Shown here one piece after another: positions 1-5,880 of a stretch of 45,284 nucleotides of DNA. A program made the translations under genes and the position numbers. Position 1 is the stretch's first letter. Each line of letters begins with the position of its first letter. This DNA is from Methanothermococcus sp. SCGC AD-155-E23 (lineage in GTDB: Archaea > AGJL01 > Methanococci > Methanococcales > Methanococcaceae): contig JAHEQA010000006.1 in NCBI GenBank assembly GCA_019561615.1, positions 1 through 45,284 on the forward strand. The letters are read 5' to 3'. Below the pieces are notes generated by a model. That model was not told the DNA's origin and did no database searches. It saw only the letters and a list, made by a program, of their open reading frames with translations.

Positions 1-624
1 TACTTCATCTCAGCAATAGGTGCTGGGATAGAGATATTCGGGAAATACAAAGAGATTCAAGACTACCAGGGTAACAAGATAGAGATATCCCAGATGCTGG
101 AGATCCTCCGAAATATAGTAACTGATTACGCCGTGAGAAGAATACTCCGGGATGGAATATCTCAGGAATTAACCCCTCTCACCAGGTTCTATATCCTCTG
201 GAGATGGAGCTATGGAGAGGCCAAGGTACACTACGACGATGCCCGGAAACTGGCACAGTCAGTGGGACTTTCTCTAGAGAAGGAATGGAATAAGGGATTC
301 ATAAAGAGGGAGAAGGAGTACATAAGGGTTCTAGGACCCCAGGATAGAAAGTTAGAGGAGATAAGGGTAAGAGACCTTATCGACGAGATACATAGAGCCC
401 TCCTCCTATGGAAAAACAATAGAAAAGAGGAGCTCCTGGAACTCCTGGAGAACAGTAGATACGTAAGCAGGGGAGTATTCTACCAGGTAGCCCAGGCCAT
501 CTCAGAGACACTACCTATAGAGAGCACGGAGAAGAAACTCCTAGACGGCTTCCTAAGCAGCATGGATAAACTAATAAGTGAGGTAGAGGATATCAGGAGA
601 CAGAAGAAACTCACGGAATACTAA
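1..624 (+). CDS. DUF1156-type adenine-specific DNA methylase, C-terminal part (partial)
   Basis: The reading frame is open from base 1, so the gene begins left of the window; about 207 C-terminal residues are visible. The segment with LTRFYILWRWSYG, then DDARKLAQSVG, GFIKREKEYIRVLGP and HRALLLWK resembles the C-terminal region of COG1743/DUF1156 proteins, large adenine-specific DNA methylases with a Zn ribbon. The catalytic DPPY-type motif would lie outside the window, so methylase activity is inferred from family resemblance only. The next gene starts 13 bases downstream and encodes a DUF499 ATPase, the usual genomic partner of DUF1156, which supports the call. The pair is associated with defence islands in surveys of prokaryotic genomes. 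Confidence 0.72.
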   Translation, partial: YFISAIGAGIEIFGKYKEIQDYQGNKIEISQMLEILRNIVTDYAVRRILRDGISQELTPLTRFYILWRWSYGEAKVHYDDARKLAQSVGLSLEKEWNKGFIKREKEYIRVLGPQDRKLEEIRVRDLIDEIHRALLLWKNNRKEELLELLENSRYVSRGVFYQVAQAISETLPIESTEKKLLDGFLSSMDKLISEVEDIRRQKKLTEY

Positions 625-637
625 AAAGGTGATTATT

Positions 638-3193
638 ATGAAGGCATTCAATCAGATAGCCATACCTCATGAGGATATAAGGGAAGGAAGATTAACAATG
701 GACATCTTTGCCGCCGATCTCTGGCAGGTGGTAAAGGGTACAGCACCTAGAGACTACCAAGACCCAGATGTCTTCTTCAGAAAAACTCACATTACAAAGG
801 GCTTAAAAAATATCCTTCAGGTTGCAGAATCTAGACTTAAGGGAAGGGGAGGAGATGCCGTTATCCAGTTACAAACACCCTTTGGAGGTGGTAAGACCCA
901 CACCTTAATAGCCCTCTATCACAAGGCCAGGGAGTGGGGGGCCAACGTAGTGGTATTTGAAGGTACTAATTTCGATGCAAAGGAGACTAGAATATGGGAG
1001 GAGTTGGAGAGACAGTTGACAGGAAAGGTTGAACTAACAAAGGGGGACACAGCCCCTGGGAAGGAGAAAATTATCAAACTCCTCTCAGAAAATGCACCGG
1101 TACTGATACTCATAGATGAACTCCTGGAGTATATAACAAAGGCTGCTGGAGTAAAGGTTGGAGATTCCAATTTAGCCTCCCAGACATACGCCTTTATCCA
1201 GGAGTTAACTGAAGCAGTACGTGCCGTTGGAAATGCCATGCTAGTTATAACCCTTACCTCAAGTACCCTGGAACAGTACGATGAAAAGGCAGAGGAGGCA
1301 CTTAACAGACTTCAGAAAATCCTTGGAAGAACTGAGAAGATATATACACCTGTAAGTGACGAGGATATAGTCCCTGTAGTGATAAAGAGATTATTTAGCA
1401 GGATAGATAAGAAGGAGGCTAAAAAGATAGTAGATGAATTTGTAGATTACATAGAACAGGAGGGGGTCCTATCCAAGGAGGAGGCTGCCCGCTACAGGGA
1501 GAAATTCTTAGAGAGCTATCCCTTTAAACCTGAGGTAATAGAGATACTCTACAAGAGATGGGGATCCTTTCCAAGTTTTCAGAGGACAAGGGGGGTCCTG
1601 AGACTTCTATCCCTGGTGGTCTACCATATGCTAGACAGGGGGGTACCCTTTATAAGACTTGGAGACTTCGACCTAAGTAACGAGGAGATTAGGAGGGAGT
1701 TGATAAAGCACATCGGTAATGAGTGGGACAGTATAATATACAGTGATATCACCGCCGAGGATTCTGGAGCTAAAATAGTAGATAAGATGGTAGGAAGTAC
1801 CTATAGACCTTACAAACTTGGAACAGTGGTAGCTACCACCATATTTATGACCTCTTTCTCTGGCAGGGGGGAGAGAGGAGTAACCATGAAGGAGTTGAAG
1901 CTCTATACCCCCCTTCCAGTATTCCCGGCAAGTATAATAGACACAGTACTTGGCTACCTCAGGGAGAGACTGTTCTACCTCTCAGATGAGGGTCTCTACT
2001 TTGTAACACAGCCCAATCTAAATAGGATAATCCTAACCTATGAGGAGAACATATCACCTGAAGAGTTGTACGAGGAGGAGCGCAGCCTACTGGAAAAGAA
2101 CATCTCATACAAACCTAAGTTTAAGGTATACATCCATCCAAAGTTTCCAAGGGATATAGCAGATGATCCAGAATTAAAACTCCTTATAATGAAAAATGAT
2201 CAGGTAGATAGGGAGTTTGTAGAGAAGTACGGGGAGAGTCCAAGGATATACAGGAACACCCTCATATTCCTATGTCCTGACGAGAACTACAGAATGGACT
2301 TCCAGAAGGATCTAAGGAAATACCTGGCACTGAGGAGGATTAAGGAAGAAAAGCTAGATGAACTGACAAAATCCCAGCAAGAGGAGGTTAAGAGGAAGTT
2401 TGGAGATATTAAAAATAGACTTTATTCAAGTCTAAGGGAGTTCTACAGAAGGATATTCCTACCAGAGAGAGAGGGATTCGAGATAGTGGAAATGGAACGT
2501 CCCCATCCAGGGTCAGAGGATAAGTTGGACGAGGCTGTCTACGATAAGTTGAAATCTGAGGGCTATATAGTAGATGAGATAAGCCCTCGGATAATAAAGG
2601 ATAGATATCTAAGGGACAGAGACTACCTAGAAATCAAAAAGCTTTATGAGTCCCTTTTGAAGATCCCTGGAGAGCTAAGAATAGCATCCAAGGAAGGTTT
2701 CATAAGATCTATAAAGGAGGGGGTAAAAGAGGGATACTTTGGATATGGGAAATTAATAGATGGAAGGATAGAGGTTATCACAATTGGAGAGACTCCAGAT
2801 ATCCAACTATCTGAGGAAGAGGTAATAGTAAAACCTGAACTATGTGTCAGAGAGGAGAAGGAGGAGAAACCTGTAGAAACACCTCCAGTAGAAAGTAAGG
2901 AAGAGATCACTGAAGAGGTAAAACACCCGCCTAGATCAAAGGCGGTGGAAGAGGGTGTTTATAGGGATATAACATTGAGGCTTGAAATCCCCCTGGACTC
3001 CCCTTCAAATGTATACAAGGTATTTTCAACTATACTTAATATCCTTAAATGTCTAAAAAGTAAGTTCAAAAACTGTGAAATGGAGGTTACCATCAGGGCT
3101 AAAGATGGGGAGATAAGTAAATCCGATTATGAGAATGTTATTGTAGAGGCTCTTAGACAGTGTAACATCTCCTTTAAAGTGGATAAAAAATAA
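638..3193 (+). CDS. DUF499 (COG1483) AAA+ family ATPase
   Basis: A protein of about 851 residues. A P-loop TPFGGGKTH lies near residues 80-88 and a Walker B strand VLILIDE near 155-161, followed by a conserved TLTSSTLEQYDEKA stretch, as in DUF499 ATPases. The C-terminal third is charged, and a Pro/Glu-rich linker near residues 740-775 leads to a small terminal domain. The family is often encoded next to DUF1156 methylases and is predicted to act in DNA modification or phage defence; its biochemistry is not established. An in-frame GTG at 629 lies inside the ribosome binding site GGTGAT, so I prefer the ATG at 638, five bases beyond GGTGA. It is probably co-transcribed with the methylase. Confidence 0.8.
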   Translation: MKAFNQIAIPHEDIREGRLTMDIFAADLWQVVKGTAPRDYQDPDVFFRKTHITKGLKNILQVAESRLKGRGGDAVIQLQTPFGGGKTHTLIALYHKAREWGANVVVFEGTNFDAKETRIWEELERQLTGKVELTKGDTAPGKEKIIKLLSENAPVLILIDELLEYITKAAGVKVGDSNLASQTYAFIQELTEAVRAVGNAMLVITLTSSTLEQYDEKAEEALNRLQKILGRTEKIYTPVSDEDIVPVVIKRLFSRIDKKEAKKIVDEFVDYIEQEGVLSKEEAARYREKFLESYPFKPEVIEILYKRWGSFPSFQRTRGVLRLLSLVVYHMLDRGVPFIRLGDFDLSNEEIRRELIKHIGNEWDSIIYSDITAEDSGAKIVDKMVGSTYRPYKLGTVVATTIFMTSFSGRGERGVTMKELKLYTPLPVFPASIIDTVLGYLRERLFYLSDEGLYFVTQPNLNRIILTYEENISPEELYEEERSLLEKNISYKPKFKVYIHPKFPRDIADDPELKLLIMKNDQVDREFVEKYGESPRIYRNTLIFLCPDENYRMDFQKDLRKYLALRRIKEEKLDELTKSQQEEVKRKFGDIKNRLYSSLREFYRRIFLPEREGFEIVEMERPHPGSEDKLDEAVYDKLKSEGYIVDEISPRIIKDRYLRDRDYLEIKKLYESLLKIPGELRIASKEGFIRSIKEGVKEGYFGYGKLIDGRIEVITIGETPDIQLSEEEVIVKPELCVREEKEEKPVETPPVESKEEITEEVKHPPRSKAVEEGVYRDITLRLEIPLDSPSNVYKVFSTILNILKCLKSKFKNCEMEVTIRAKDGEISKSDYENVIVEALRQCNISFKVDKK

Positions 3194-3220: not shown

Positions 3221-4591
3221 ATGGATTTAGAGTACTACCTGGAGAAACTTGAGAACCTGTCCCTGGATGCCTACTGGGATATAAGGGTGATAAACAACAG
3301 GTCCAACAACATCATAGTGAAGGATGGGGAGATAGAGGAGATATCCTCAGGTAAAACCTCTGGAGTTGCAGTTAGAGTACTTTACAAAAATGGATGGGGG
3401 TATGGAAGTTCCCACAGGACAGACTTTGAAGAGGTAAAAACACTTTTGGAGAGGGCCTACAGGAGGGCTAAACTCTCCAATGAGCACTCAAAGAAGAGGG
3501 TAGTACTTAAGGATGTGAAGGTATACAGGGATAGGGTAAGGTGCCAGGGGAGGATAAACCCTGAGGATATAGGTATAGAGGAGAAGATGGAGTATATTTT
3601 GGAGACCCATAAAAACCTGTTAGATAGGGAGGGGAAGATAGTAAGTACCTCGGTGCTCTACTCAGATGTCCAGGGGGACTCCCTATTTCTAAGTAGTGAA
3701 GGAGCCCTGATAAGGGAGGAGACCAGTAGGGTATTTATGAGTATAAGTGCAGTTGCAAGGGATAACTCCAATATACAGTATGCCTCAGAGCGTATTGGAG
3801 GCTACGGCTTCGAGGTTGTAAAGGAGGGTAACATTGAGAATTTAGCCAGGAACACCAGGGAGAGGGCTATAAGGTTACTTGGGGCAAAACCATGTCCAAA
3901 GGGGGAGTTCAAGGTTGTACTAGATCCTGAACTTGCAGGAGTCTTTATCCACGAGGCTGTAGGTCACGCCTCAGAGGCTGACCTGGTACTCCAGAGGGAC
4001 AGTGTATTCAGGGACAAGATAGGTGAGAGGGTTGGCAGTGACTACGTAACTGTTATAGACAACCCCCTTATAGAGGGGGCCTTTGGATATTATAAATACG
4101 ACAGTGAAGGTGTGAAGGGCAGGGAGACTGTTATAATAGAGGAGGGTATCTTGAAAAGTTACCTTCACAGTAGGGAGACTGCAGGGCGGCTGAATATGGA
4201 GGTTACAGGGAATGGGAGGGCAGAGGGGTTAAATAGACCACTGGTTAGAATGAGTAACACCTATATAAAGCCTGGGGATTGGGGTTTTGAGGAGTTGATA
4301 GAGGATACAGGGAATGGTATCTTCCTCAGGGGTTCCCGTGGGGGACAGGTGGATACAGGTAAAGGTCTCTTCCAATTCAATGCAGTGGAGGCATTTTTAA
4401 TTGAGAATGGGGAACTTACAACACCCTTGAGGGATGCAGGTCTCAGTGGGGAGATAATGGAGATACTTCATAACGTAGATGGTGTTACAAGGGAGTTTAA
4501 ACTAAGTGTTGGATACTGTGGTAAAAATGGACAGAGTGTACCAGTGGGAGATGGGGGAGGGAGTATAAGAACTAAAACAGTAATAAGCTGA
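3221..4591 (+). CDS. tldD: TldD-family metalloprotease
   Basis: 456 residues, the usual TldD length. The metal-binding HExxxH motif is present as HEAVGHASEAD (H244, E245, H249), followed by GRETVIIEEGILKSYLHSRETA and NGRAEGLNRPLVRMSNTY, all typical of the TldD/PmbA family. In bacteria TldD and TldE form a heterodimeric protease that degrades unfolded peptides and matures some modified peptides; TldD carries the catalytic metal site. A TldE partner is not seen in this window. The gene sits 27 bases after the DUF499 gene, and the deaminase gene follows after 8 bases on the same strand, so the run may be co-transcribed. Confidence 0.9.
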   Translation: MDLEYYLEKLENLSLDAYWDIRVINNRSNNIIVKDGEIEEISSGKTSGVAVRVLYKNGWGYGSSHRTDFEEVKTLLERAYRRAKLSNEHSKKRVVLKDVKVYRDRVRCQGRINPEDIGIEEKMEYILETHKNLLDREGKIVSTSVLYSDVQGDSLFLSSEGALIREETSRVFMSISAVARDNSNIQYASERIGGYGFEVVKEGNIENLARNTRERAIRLLGAKPCPKGEFKVVLDPELAGVFIHEAVGHASEADLVLQRDSVFRDKIGERVGSDYVTVIDNPLIEGAFGYYKYDSEGVKGRETVIIEEGILKSYLHSRETAGRLNMEVTGNGRAEGLNRPLVRMSNTYIKPGDWGFEELIEDTGNGIFLRGSRGGQVDTGKGLFQFNAVEAFLIENGELTTPLRDAGLSGEIMEILHNVDGVTREFKLSVGYCGKNGQSVPVGDGGGSIRTKTVIS

Positions 4592-4599
4592 GGGATAGG

Positions 4600-5880
4600 A
4601 TGATACTTATAAGGGATGTTAGACTACTGGAGTGTAATGGCAACTGGGACATCCTTGTAGAGGGGAACAGGATAAAGAGGATAGGAAGGAACTTGATAGA
4701 GAAGGAGGGTATTGAGGACAGGGATATAGAGGTAATAGATGGAAGGAACATGGTGGCAATCCCAGGACTTGTAAACACCCATACCCACATACCTATGACC
4801 CTGTTCCGTGGAGTTGCAGATGACATCCCCCTAATGGAGTGGCTGAACAACTACATCTGGAAGATGGAGTCTAAGTTAAACGAGGAGCTGGTCTATATAG
4901 GCACACTCCTTGGAGCCATAGAGATGATAAAAAGTGGTACAACTACATTTAACGATATGTACTTCTATCTAGATGGGATAGTAAAGGGGGTACTTGAAAG
5001 TGGTATAAGGGCTGTCCTCTCCTACGGTATGATAGATCTGTTCCAGGAGGATAGAAGGGAGAGGGAGATAAAGAACAGTGAAAAAACAGTGAAGAAGATA
5101 ATGAAGCTGGACAATCCAAGGATAAAAGCTGCCATAGGTCCTCATGCACCCTACACCTGCTCCAGGGAACTTTTAACAGCTGCCCATGAGATGGCAAGAA
5201 AATACAGTATCCCCATCCACATACACATGAACGAGACTCTAGATGAGATAAAGATGATAAAGGAAAAGACAGGAATGAGACCCTTTGAGTATCTAGATTC
5301 CATAGGGTTCTTTGAGGGGGTAAGGGTAATTGCAGCCCACTGTGTCCATCTCTCAGATAGGGAGATAGGGATTATGGAAAAGAGGGATGTTGTAGTATCT
5401 CACAACCCTATAAGTAATTTAAAGTTGGCCTCAGGTATTGCACCTATTCCAAAACTTCTAGAGAGGGATATCCCTGTCACCCTTGGAACAGATGGCTGTG
5501 GCAGTAACAACAACCTGAACCTCTTTGAGGAGATAAAGATGGCCTCCCTTATACACAAGGGGGTATCCCTTGACCCCACCCTGGTACCTGGGGAGGTCTC
5601 CTTTAAATTCGCCACGTTAAATGGAGGAAGGGCCTTAAACTTGGAGGTTGGAGTGTTGAAGGAGGGGTATTTAGCAGATATAGTACTTATAGATCTTAGA
5701 AAACCCTATCTAATACCAGTTGAAAACTTAAAATCCCATTTAGTCTACGCCTTCAAGGGGGTTGTTGATACTGTACTGATAGATGGGAAGGTGGTTTTAA
5801 GGGATGGAAAGATGACCAGTATCCAGGAGCATAAGGTATATGAGATGGCTGAAAAGGCCTATAGGAAGTTAGTAGATTAA
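4600..5880 (+). CDS. dadD: 5'-deoxyadenosine deaminase (amidohydrolase family)
   Basis: 426 residues of the amidohydrolase superfamily (MtaD/SsnA group). The first metal pair is HTH (H61, H63) after GLVNT; later come HIHMNET, AHCVHLS and the GTDGCGSNNNLNLFEE active-site segment. The methanogen members deaminate 5'-deoxyadenosine, and also 5'-methylthioadenosine and S-adenosylhomocysteine, to inosine derivatives. They recycle the by-product of radical SAM enzymes, one of which (NifB) is encoded in this window. Substrate preference cannot be read from sequence alone. The stop codon overlaps the convergent hypD stop by four bases. Confidence 0.85.
   Translation: MILIRDVRLLECNGNWDILVEGNRIKRIGRNLIEKEGIEDRDIEVIDGRNMVAIPGLVNTHTHIPMTLFRGVADDIPLMEWLNNYIWKMESKLNEELVYIGTLLGAIEMIKSGTTTFNDMYFYLDGIVKGVLESGIRAVLSYGMIDLFQEDRREREIKNSEKTVKKIMKLDNPRIKAAIGPHAPYTCSRELLTAAHEMARKYSIPIHIHMNETLDEIKMIKEKTGMRPFEYLDSIGFFEGVRVIAAHCVHLSDREIGIMEKRDVVVSHNPISNLKLASGIAPIPKLLERDIPVTLGTDGCGSNNNLNLFEEIKMASLIHKGVSLDPTLVPGEVSFKFATLNGGRALNLEVGVLKEGYLADIVLIDLRKPYLIPVENLKSHLVYAFKGVVDTVLIDGKVVLRDGKMTSIQEHKVYEMAEKAYRKLVD

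Follow-up and report, generated by a model that had tools for sequence, protein, structure and literature searches.

A Type-1 BREX-related (Hma) operon in a Methanothermococcus genome with a methylase gene in three dispersed copies bearing signatures of sequence exchange

The window, i.e. the whole analysed stretch of 45,284 nucleotides, begins at the end of contig C6 of an archaeal genome (1.04 Mb, 51 contigs, 86% complete), which we take to belong to the Methanococcales. Its first base already lies inside the frame of a methylase gene, and the left edge carries the following features:

1..624, + strand: C-terminal 207 codons of HmaB, a DUF1156-type N6-adenine methylase (HmaB profile match 5e-8)
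625..637, + strand: spacer of 13 bases from the methylase stop to the ATPase ATG, read from the sequence
638..3193, + strand: HmaC, a DUF499 AAA+ ATPase of 851 aa (HmaC profile match 1.8e-124)
3221..4591, + strand: TldD/PmbA metallopeptidase, a housekeeping boundary with the same neighbour in the relative G005
4600..5880, + strand: amidohydrolase-family deaminase, a housekeeping boundary outside the system

The methylase stop codon occupies positions 622-624 and the spacer, of tight operon-like length, holds a candidate ribosome-binding sequence (AGGTGAT). An earlier sequence-only reading had described a DUF1156 methylase end followed 13 bases on by a DUF499 ATPase, and the frames and profile matches confirm it; its view of TldD and the deaminase as housekeeping genes is borne out by the same neighbours in G005, where they also stand outside the system.

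The methylase piece is matched by PADLOC HmaB at profile positions 770-874 of 973, which is the C-terminal end. A Pfam search of positions 1-624 gave no significant match; PF06634 (DUF1156) models the N-terminus and therefore cannot match inside the window. The DUF1156 identity is shown by a 96%-identical paralog of 816 codons and by three DUF1156 starts in the same genome, and the expected family match was obtained outside the window, at the methylase start on contig C15 (PF06634, 2e-24). The copy on contig C4 matches PADLOC HmaB at 5e-114 and is an intact frame of 816 codons with DPFxGGG, CxxC and DPPY motifs. The methylase model found no confident match among solved structures (all E > 0.02). 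DUF1156-type relatives are also carried by viruses: those of the Sulfolobus viruses STSV1 and STSV2 share 26% identity over 72% of the query, and an IMG/VR viral contig (L123) has a full-length methylase of 54% identity; neither a helicase nor an ATPase was detected within 4 kb of it. Such viral methylases are possible anti-restriction copies.

The ATPase is matched by the PADLOC profiles HmaC and DUF499 (2.9e-45). Pfam PF04465 had zero matches across the whole genome, with a working positive control in Thermotoga maritima, and NCBIfam NF042962 reached 186 bits against a cut-off of 1200 bits. Since Pfam fails and NCBIfam stays far under its cut-off, the protein is placed in a divergent, remote DUF499 branch. 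It has a Walker A motif (TPFGGGKTH, residues 80-88), invariant across 22 homologues, and a Walker B motif (LILIDE, 156-161). Its AlphaFold model (pLDDT 86) finds its best solved-structure match in the BREX ATPase BrxC (E 1.3e-6); ORC/Cdc6 is among the matches ranked after it. The C-terminal end, compared with the RRM/ferredoxin-like domain given for Type-1 BREX-related (BR) or Hma ATPases, is modelled as two helices (789-809 and 828-841) past a disordered linker, with strands left unassigned by the model.

The proposal that the system is cut and continues leftward was confirmed on another contig. Contig C15 ends with the gene of a 1092-aa SNF2 helicase, directly followed by the opening ~90 codons of a DUF1156 methylase. 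The helicase matches PADLOC HmaA at 2e-189 (the BrxHI and BrxHII models match too) and has a C-terminal PD-(D/E)XK domain, NOV_C (7.8e-24), in which the G, D and ExK residues (D-x13-15-ExK) are invariant in 11 homologues; the nuclease motif is apparently intact, as judged from these residues. Pfam searches gave no PLD nuclease match in this helicase and no match at its N-terminus, where Type-1 BR systems place a TUDOR domain. In G005 (complete, same genus) the gene row is NAC, helicase, methylase (900 aa), ATPase, TldD and deaminase, the NAC gene being named by eye. Contigs C15 and C6 carry the left and right flanks of this operon and are therefore regarded as one operon broken within the methylase, which is assembled in this genome at its two ends alone. 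Of the genes anticipated upstream, the helicase was thus found, whereas a PLD nuclease and a DUF3780 gene are absent from the locus, the nuclease being NOV_C instead. The G005 operon leaves no room for a DUF3780 gene; PglZ was not found at the locus, flanked by NAC and TldD in G005 and here, nor did either genome show an extra gene (e.g. EVE) where the operon meets its housekeeping neighbours.

On its gene content the locus is a Type-1 DUF499-centred BR system, the same as Hma in PADLOC and known in kind, and the earlier prediction of a defence pair fits this filing of the three-gene set. Type-1 BR systems are described in two reports (PMC12839542, PMC8565338) as a Snf2 helicase bearing a PD-(D/E)XK domain at its C-terminus, a DUF1156 N6-methylase and a DUF499 AAA+ ATPase, with archaeal BR/Hma members on record. 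The same three genes are found here, and Type-1 is preferred to Type-2 because the nuclease fused to the helicase is of the PD-(D/E)XK (NOV_C) type. Type-2 BR was rejected, there being neither a DUF3780 gene nor a PLD (HKD) nuclease on the helicase, and Type-3 BR and BREX were rejected for the lack of a PglZ gene at the locus. Two differences from Type-1 relatives can be named: about half of Type-1 ATPases carry a HEPN fusion and the window ATPase has none, and the methylase occurs here in three dispersed copies that exchange sequence. Type-3 BREX (BrxC, BrxXI, BrxHII) has homologous ATPase, methylase and helicase, however PglZ, BrxA and BrxF are missing at this locus and the helicase carries a nuclease. 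The archaeal COG1743-DUF499-SWI2/SNF2 operon with EVE (PMC7641849) shares the core genes, but no EVE-type gene is seen at the operon flanks here or in G005. In the BR passages of PMC12839542 the model of marking, assembly and cutting is a prediction, save for one cited antiphage result for HmaA, and neither multiple nor split methylases are mentioned; the earlier wording that the mechanism is not settled stays fair.

In this genome a single ATPase and a single helicase, which rules out a multi-copy ATPase, stand against three methylase N-termini and three C-termini. The DUF1156 starts lie at the ends of C15 (past the helicase), C28 (past pgi, glucose-6-phosphate isomerase) and C17 (past map, methionine aminopeptidase), and the C-termini at the ends of C6 (the window), C4 and C36. 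Two copies are solitary, adjoining pgi/connectase and map genes. These names, like pfkC below, were given by family resemblance, and the gene adjoining the C36 methylase end is one that we take to be connectase-like. On C4 the methylase is followed by an HTH gene and an MCM gene (TrmB-like HTH and MCM helicase gene, L011 2641-6059, ahead of leuC), and a second MCM begins at 11762 of L011; the HTH-MCM stretch is a possible remnant of an integrated element.

As every break falls at a contig end of a fragmented bin (51 contigs, 86% complete), the three copies could be an artefact of assembly or binning, i.e. one locus seen through chimeric contigs or a strain mixture. This is, however, highly improbable, given that separate bins repeat the junctions. 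G008 and G010, of the same genus as the window and matching by sequence the public MAGs SZUA-1453 and SZUA-1534, both labelled Methanothermococcus okinawensis, were compared: the former, with flanks of 86% DNA identity, has the same pgi-, map- and connectase-side junctions and at least parts of both solitary copies at the same sites, and the latter (98% identity) has the map and operon sites as in this genome. Moreover, C4 carries an orphan core, C-terminus and flank on one contig. Because G008 and G010 share these junctions, the three copies are considered real and older than the species split.

In G004, G005 and G006 the connectase gene lies next to pfkC (ADP-dependent phosphofructokinase). 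A search did not find pfkC in this genome (G000), G008 or G010, all of which bear orphan methylases; a methylase therefore occupies the former place of pfkC (loci compared: C36/C28 of G000 and C24/C42 of G008 against G004, G005 and G006, L053, L057 and L058). How the contig ends pair is indicated in two ways: C28 with C36 and C17 with C4 are favoured by G006 (pgi-pfkC-connectase) together with G004 (map-leuC), and the opposite pairing, C28 with C4 and C17 with C36, is favoured by G005 (map-pfkC-connectase). The replacement of pfkC next to connectase and the MCM helicase gene adjoining the methylase on C4 resemble scars of rearrangement or integration, as would be expected if the extra copies were neutral duplicates without a role, produced by recombination or a mobile element. 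Such neutrality is nevertheless improbable: the C4 frame has kept its 816 codons and all three motifs, the same sites are maintained across two species with 14% divergence between their flanks, and spread by a mobile element was discarded, as no transposase is seen beside the orphan copies.

Several lines of evidence show that the copies exchange sequence. The pgi-site and map-site starts are identical at 145 of 145 bases within this genome and match the start of its operon copy at 99.3% (first 145 comparable bases), although contigs break where copies are identical, which somewhat favours identity at the very contig ends. The same pgi and map sites in G008 are 90.5% and 91.7% identical to those of this genome (Fisher p 9e-5), so copies within the genome are more alike than their G008 counterparts are to them; the bases just ahead of and at the start codon are, in turn, site-specific and common to both genomes. 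In the pgi copy, 17 bases (GGGATAGTTATGGACAG) are identical to the helicase-methylase junction, helicase stop included, and its start looks as if it had been copied from an operon. Independent of the contig-end effect is a patchwork in the 524 C-terminal bases that C6 (window 1-621 in this comparison), C4 and C36 share: 64 variable sites are clustered, with 13 consecutive sites grouping C6 and C36 against C4 and other groupings on either side, and 20,000 shuffles produced no arrangement as clustered (permutation test, p < 5e-5). Finally, the last 621 bases of C4 are 92% identical to the G010 operon copy (54 of 69 4-fold sites identical), against 75% (18 of 44) in the preceding 432 bases, the core, which stands about as far from G010 as from the G005 operon copy (19 of 42 4-fold sites). 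In C4, then, a divergent core of older date is flanked by ends that were homogenised recently, and the exchange patterns bear the signatures of gene conversion between the copies.

The divergence of C4 is not spread evenly. Its methylase agrees with that of G005 at ~85-90% over most of the length and at ~53-63% in two blocks, located as follows:

A1 alignment columns ~385-405 and ~463-540: low-agreement blocks between the C4 and G005 methylases, with a further dip at 601-630

The family-wide conservation minimum lies at residues 421-440 and 461-500 of L068, in whose numbering the two blocks cover about 345-362 and 421-500. Three Thermocrinis N-halves (L097, L100, L101) are 92-100% identical in most of their DNA and 52-70% identical in the same two blocks. 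L075 (Thermodesulfovibrio) and L072 (archaeal), from one metagenome, share 94-98% DNA identity over the last 220 codons and 35-52% protein identity over residues 401-518, and L099 and L116 are further near-identical methylases differing almost solely in two blocks ahead of DPPY. We infer from these comparisons that the two blocks may be exchangeable target-recognition cassettes on a constant backbone.

The same part of the protein is where the gene is divided in some relatives. Among 56 relatives 29 are intact through this region and about ten have the gene broken at a single site:

P0011 residues ~487-494, just ahead of the strand leading to DPPY: split point of the methylase
L088, L089, L095, L097, L098, L099, L100, L116 and L104: split HmaB loci

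The N-half has ~490-510 aa and is closed by a stop codon, and a separate start opens the C-half (~411 aa); an intein or intron at the site was rejected on these grounds. Where the contig allows, the order is helicase, N-half, cargo, C-half and ATPase. The cargo is of toxin-antitoxin type (DarT with a macro domain, a nucleotidyltransferase with HepT/HEPN, AAA_15 ATPases, coiled-coil genes) and also includes an IS110-like transposase (called by eye). In the Thermocrinis locus L100 (1806-3719), the space between the methylase halves holds three or four tandem, diverging small coiled-coil genes (MARAIDLELLQLLEDKLGKE...), encoded on the opposite strand. The split lineages include Aquificaceae, Campylobacteraceae (L089), Deltaproteobacteria, Archaeoglobus and Methanosarcinales; the window's own methylase family is unsplit at this point, as seen in the intact C4 copy. 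The word "split" does not appear in the main text of either the BR paper (PMC12839542) or the HEPN paper (PMC3710099).

In BREX, the methylase PglX/BrxX is the specificity factor for modification and restriction alike, with its TRD inside the methylase, and its flanking domains have been implicated in the control of modification and restriction (PMC12707154, PMC11341690). By analogy with the BREX and BR literature, HmaB would methylate adenine in a host target sequence and serve as the specificity subunit, HmaC would assemble the complex on DNA, and HmaA would translocate on unmodified DNA and cut it. On the BREX specificity model, copies joining constant ends to different cores (as judged from the orphan C4 against the operon copies of G010, over the C-terminal 351 aa, and G005) would be alternative specificity subunits. 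The shared N- and C-terminal parts of the solitary copies might then be docking surfaces, their own recognition cores might offer the single HmaA/HmaC pair alternative specificities, and the copies might act as donors for recombinational change of specificity; these roles are suggested with more caution than those of the operon proteins. A Type-1 BR (Hma) defence operon with solitary HmaB copies as alternative specificity subunits and recombination donors is considered probable.

A different role for the solitary methylases beside the same Type-1 BR operon deserves serious weight, though we do not think it probable: they could be a host back-up with the same target or left-over antidotes. Solitary methylases without partners are common (PMC12707154), homogenised ends are consistent with redundancy, and G008 (~96% complete) has orphan copies with no ATPase or helicase found, an observation that fits specificity partners equally well. 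A pure back-up would, however, be expected to preserve the recognition part, whereas the C4 core is as diverged from the G010 operon copy (18/44) as from that of G005 (19/42), and C4 and G005 differ in the very two blocks that swap elsewhere.

What is new here, at the level of sequence, is the methylase as a dispersed three-copy gene. The alternative-specificity reading recalls the pneumococcal hsdS inversions (PMC4948785), with constant and exchangeable recognition parts in several copies per genome, although the copies here are dispersed among housekeeping genes with no recombinase gene seen beside them, and the likeness extends to gene sequences, not to switching within a population. The arrangement suggests a system that may be able to change or widen its target sites. 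The fuller picture, of one ATPase and one helicase-nuclease served by interchangeable, recombining methylases, and of a thermophile HmaB with two exchangeable blocks beside a fixed split point open to toxin-antitoxin cargo, is put forward tentatively and with more doubt than confidence.

These findings bear on how BREX-related systems choose and change their targets: a small archaeal genome seems to combine one restriction machine with three methylases sharing their ends. The split genes of other thermophiles suggest that breakage at this point within a defence enzyme recurs and has been selected, and the homologues indicate two sharply bounded blocks as the recognition part, which would make specificity directly testable.
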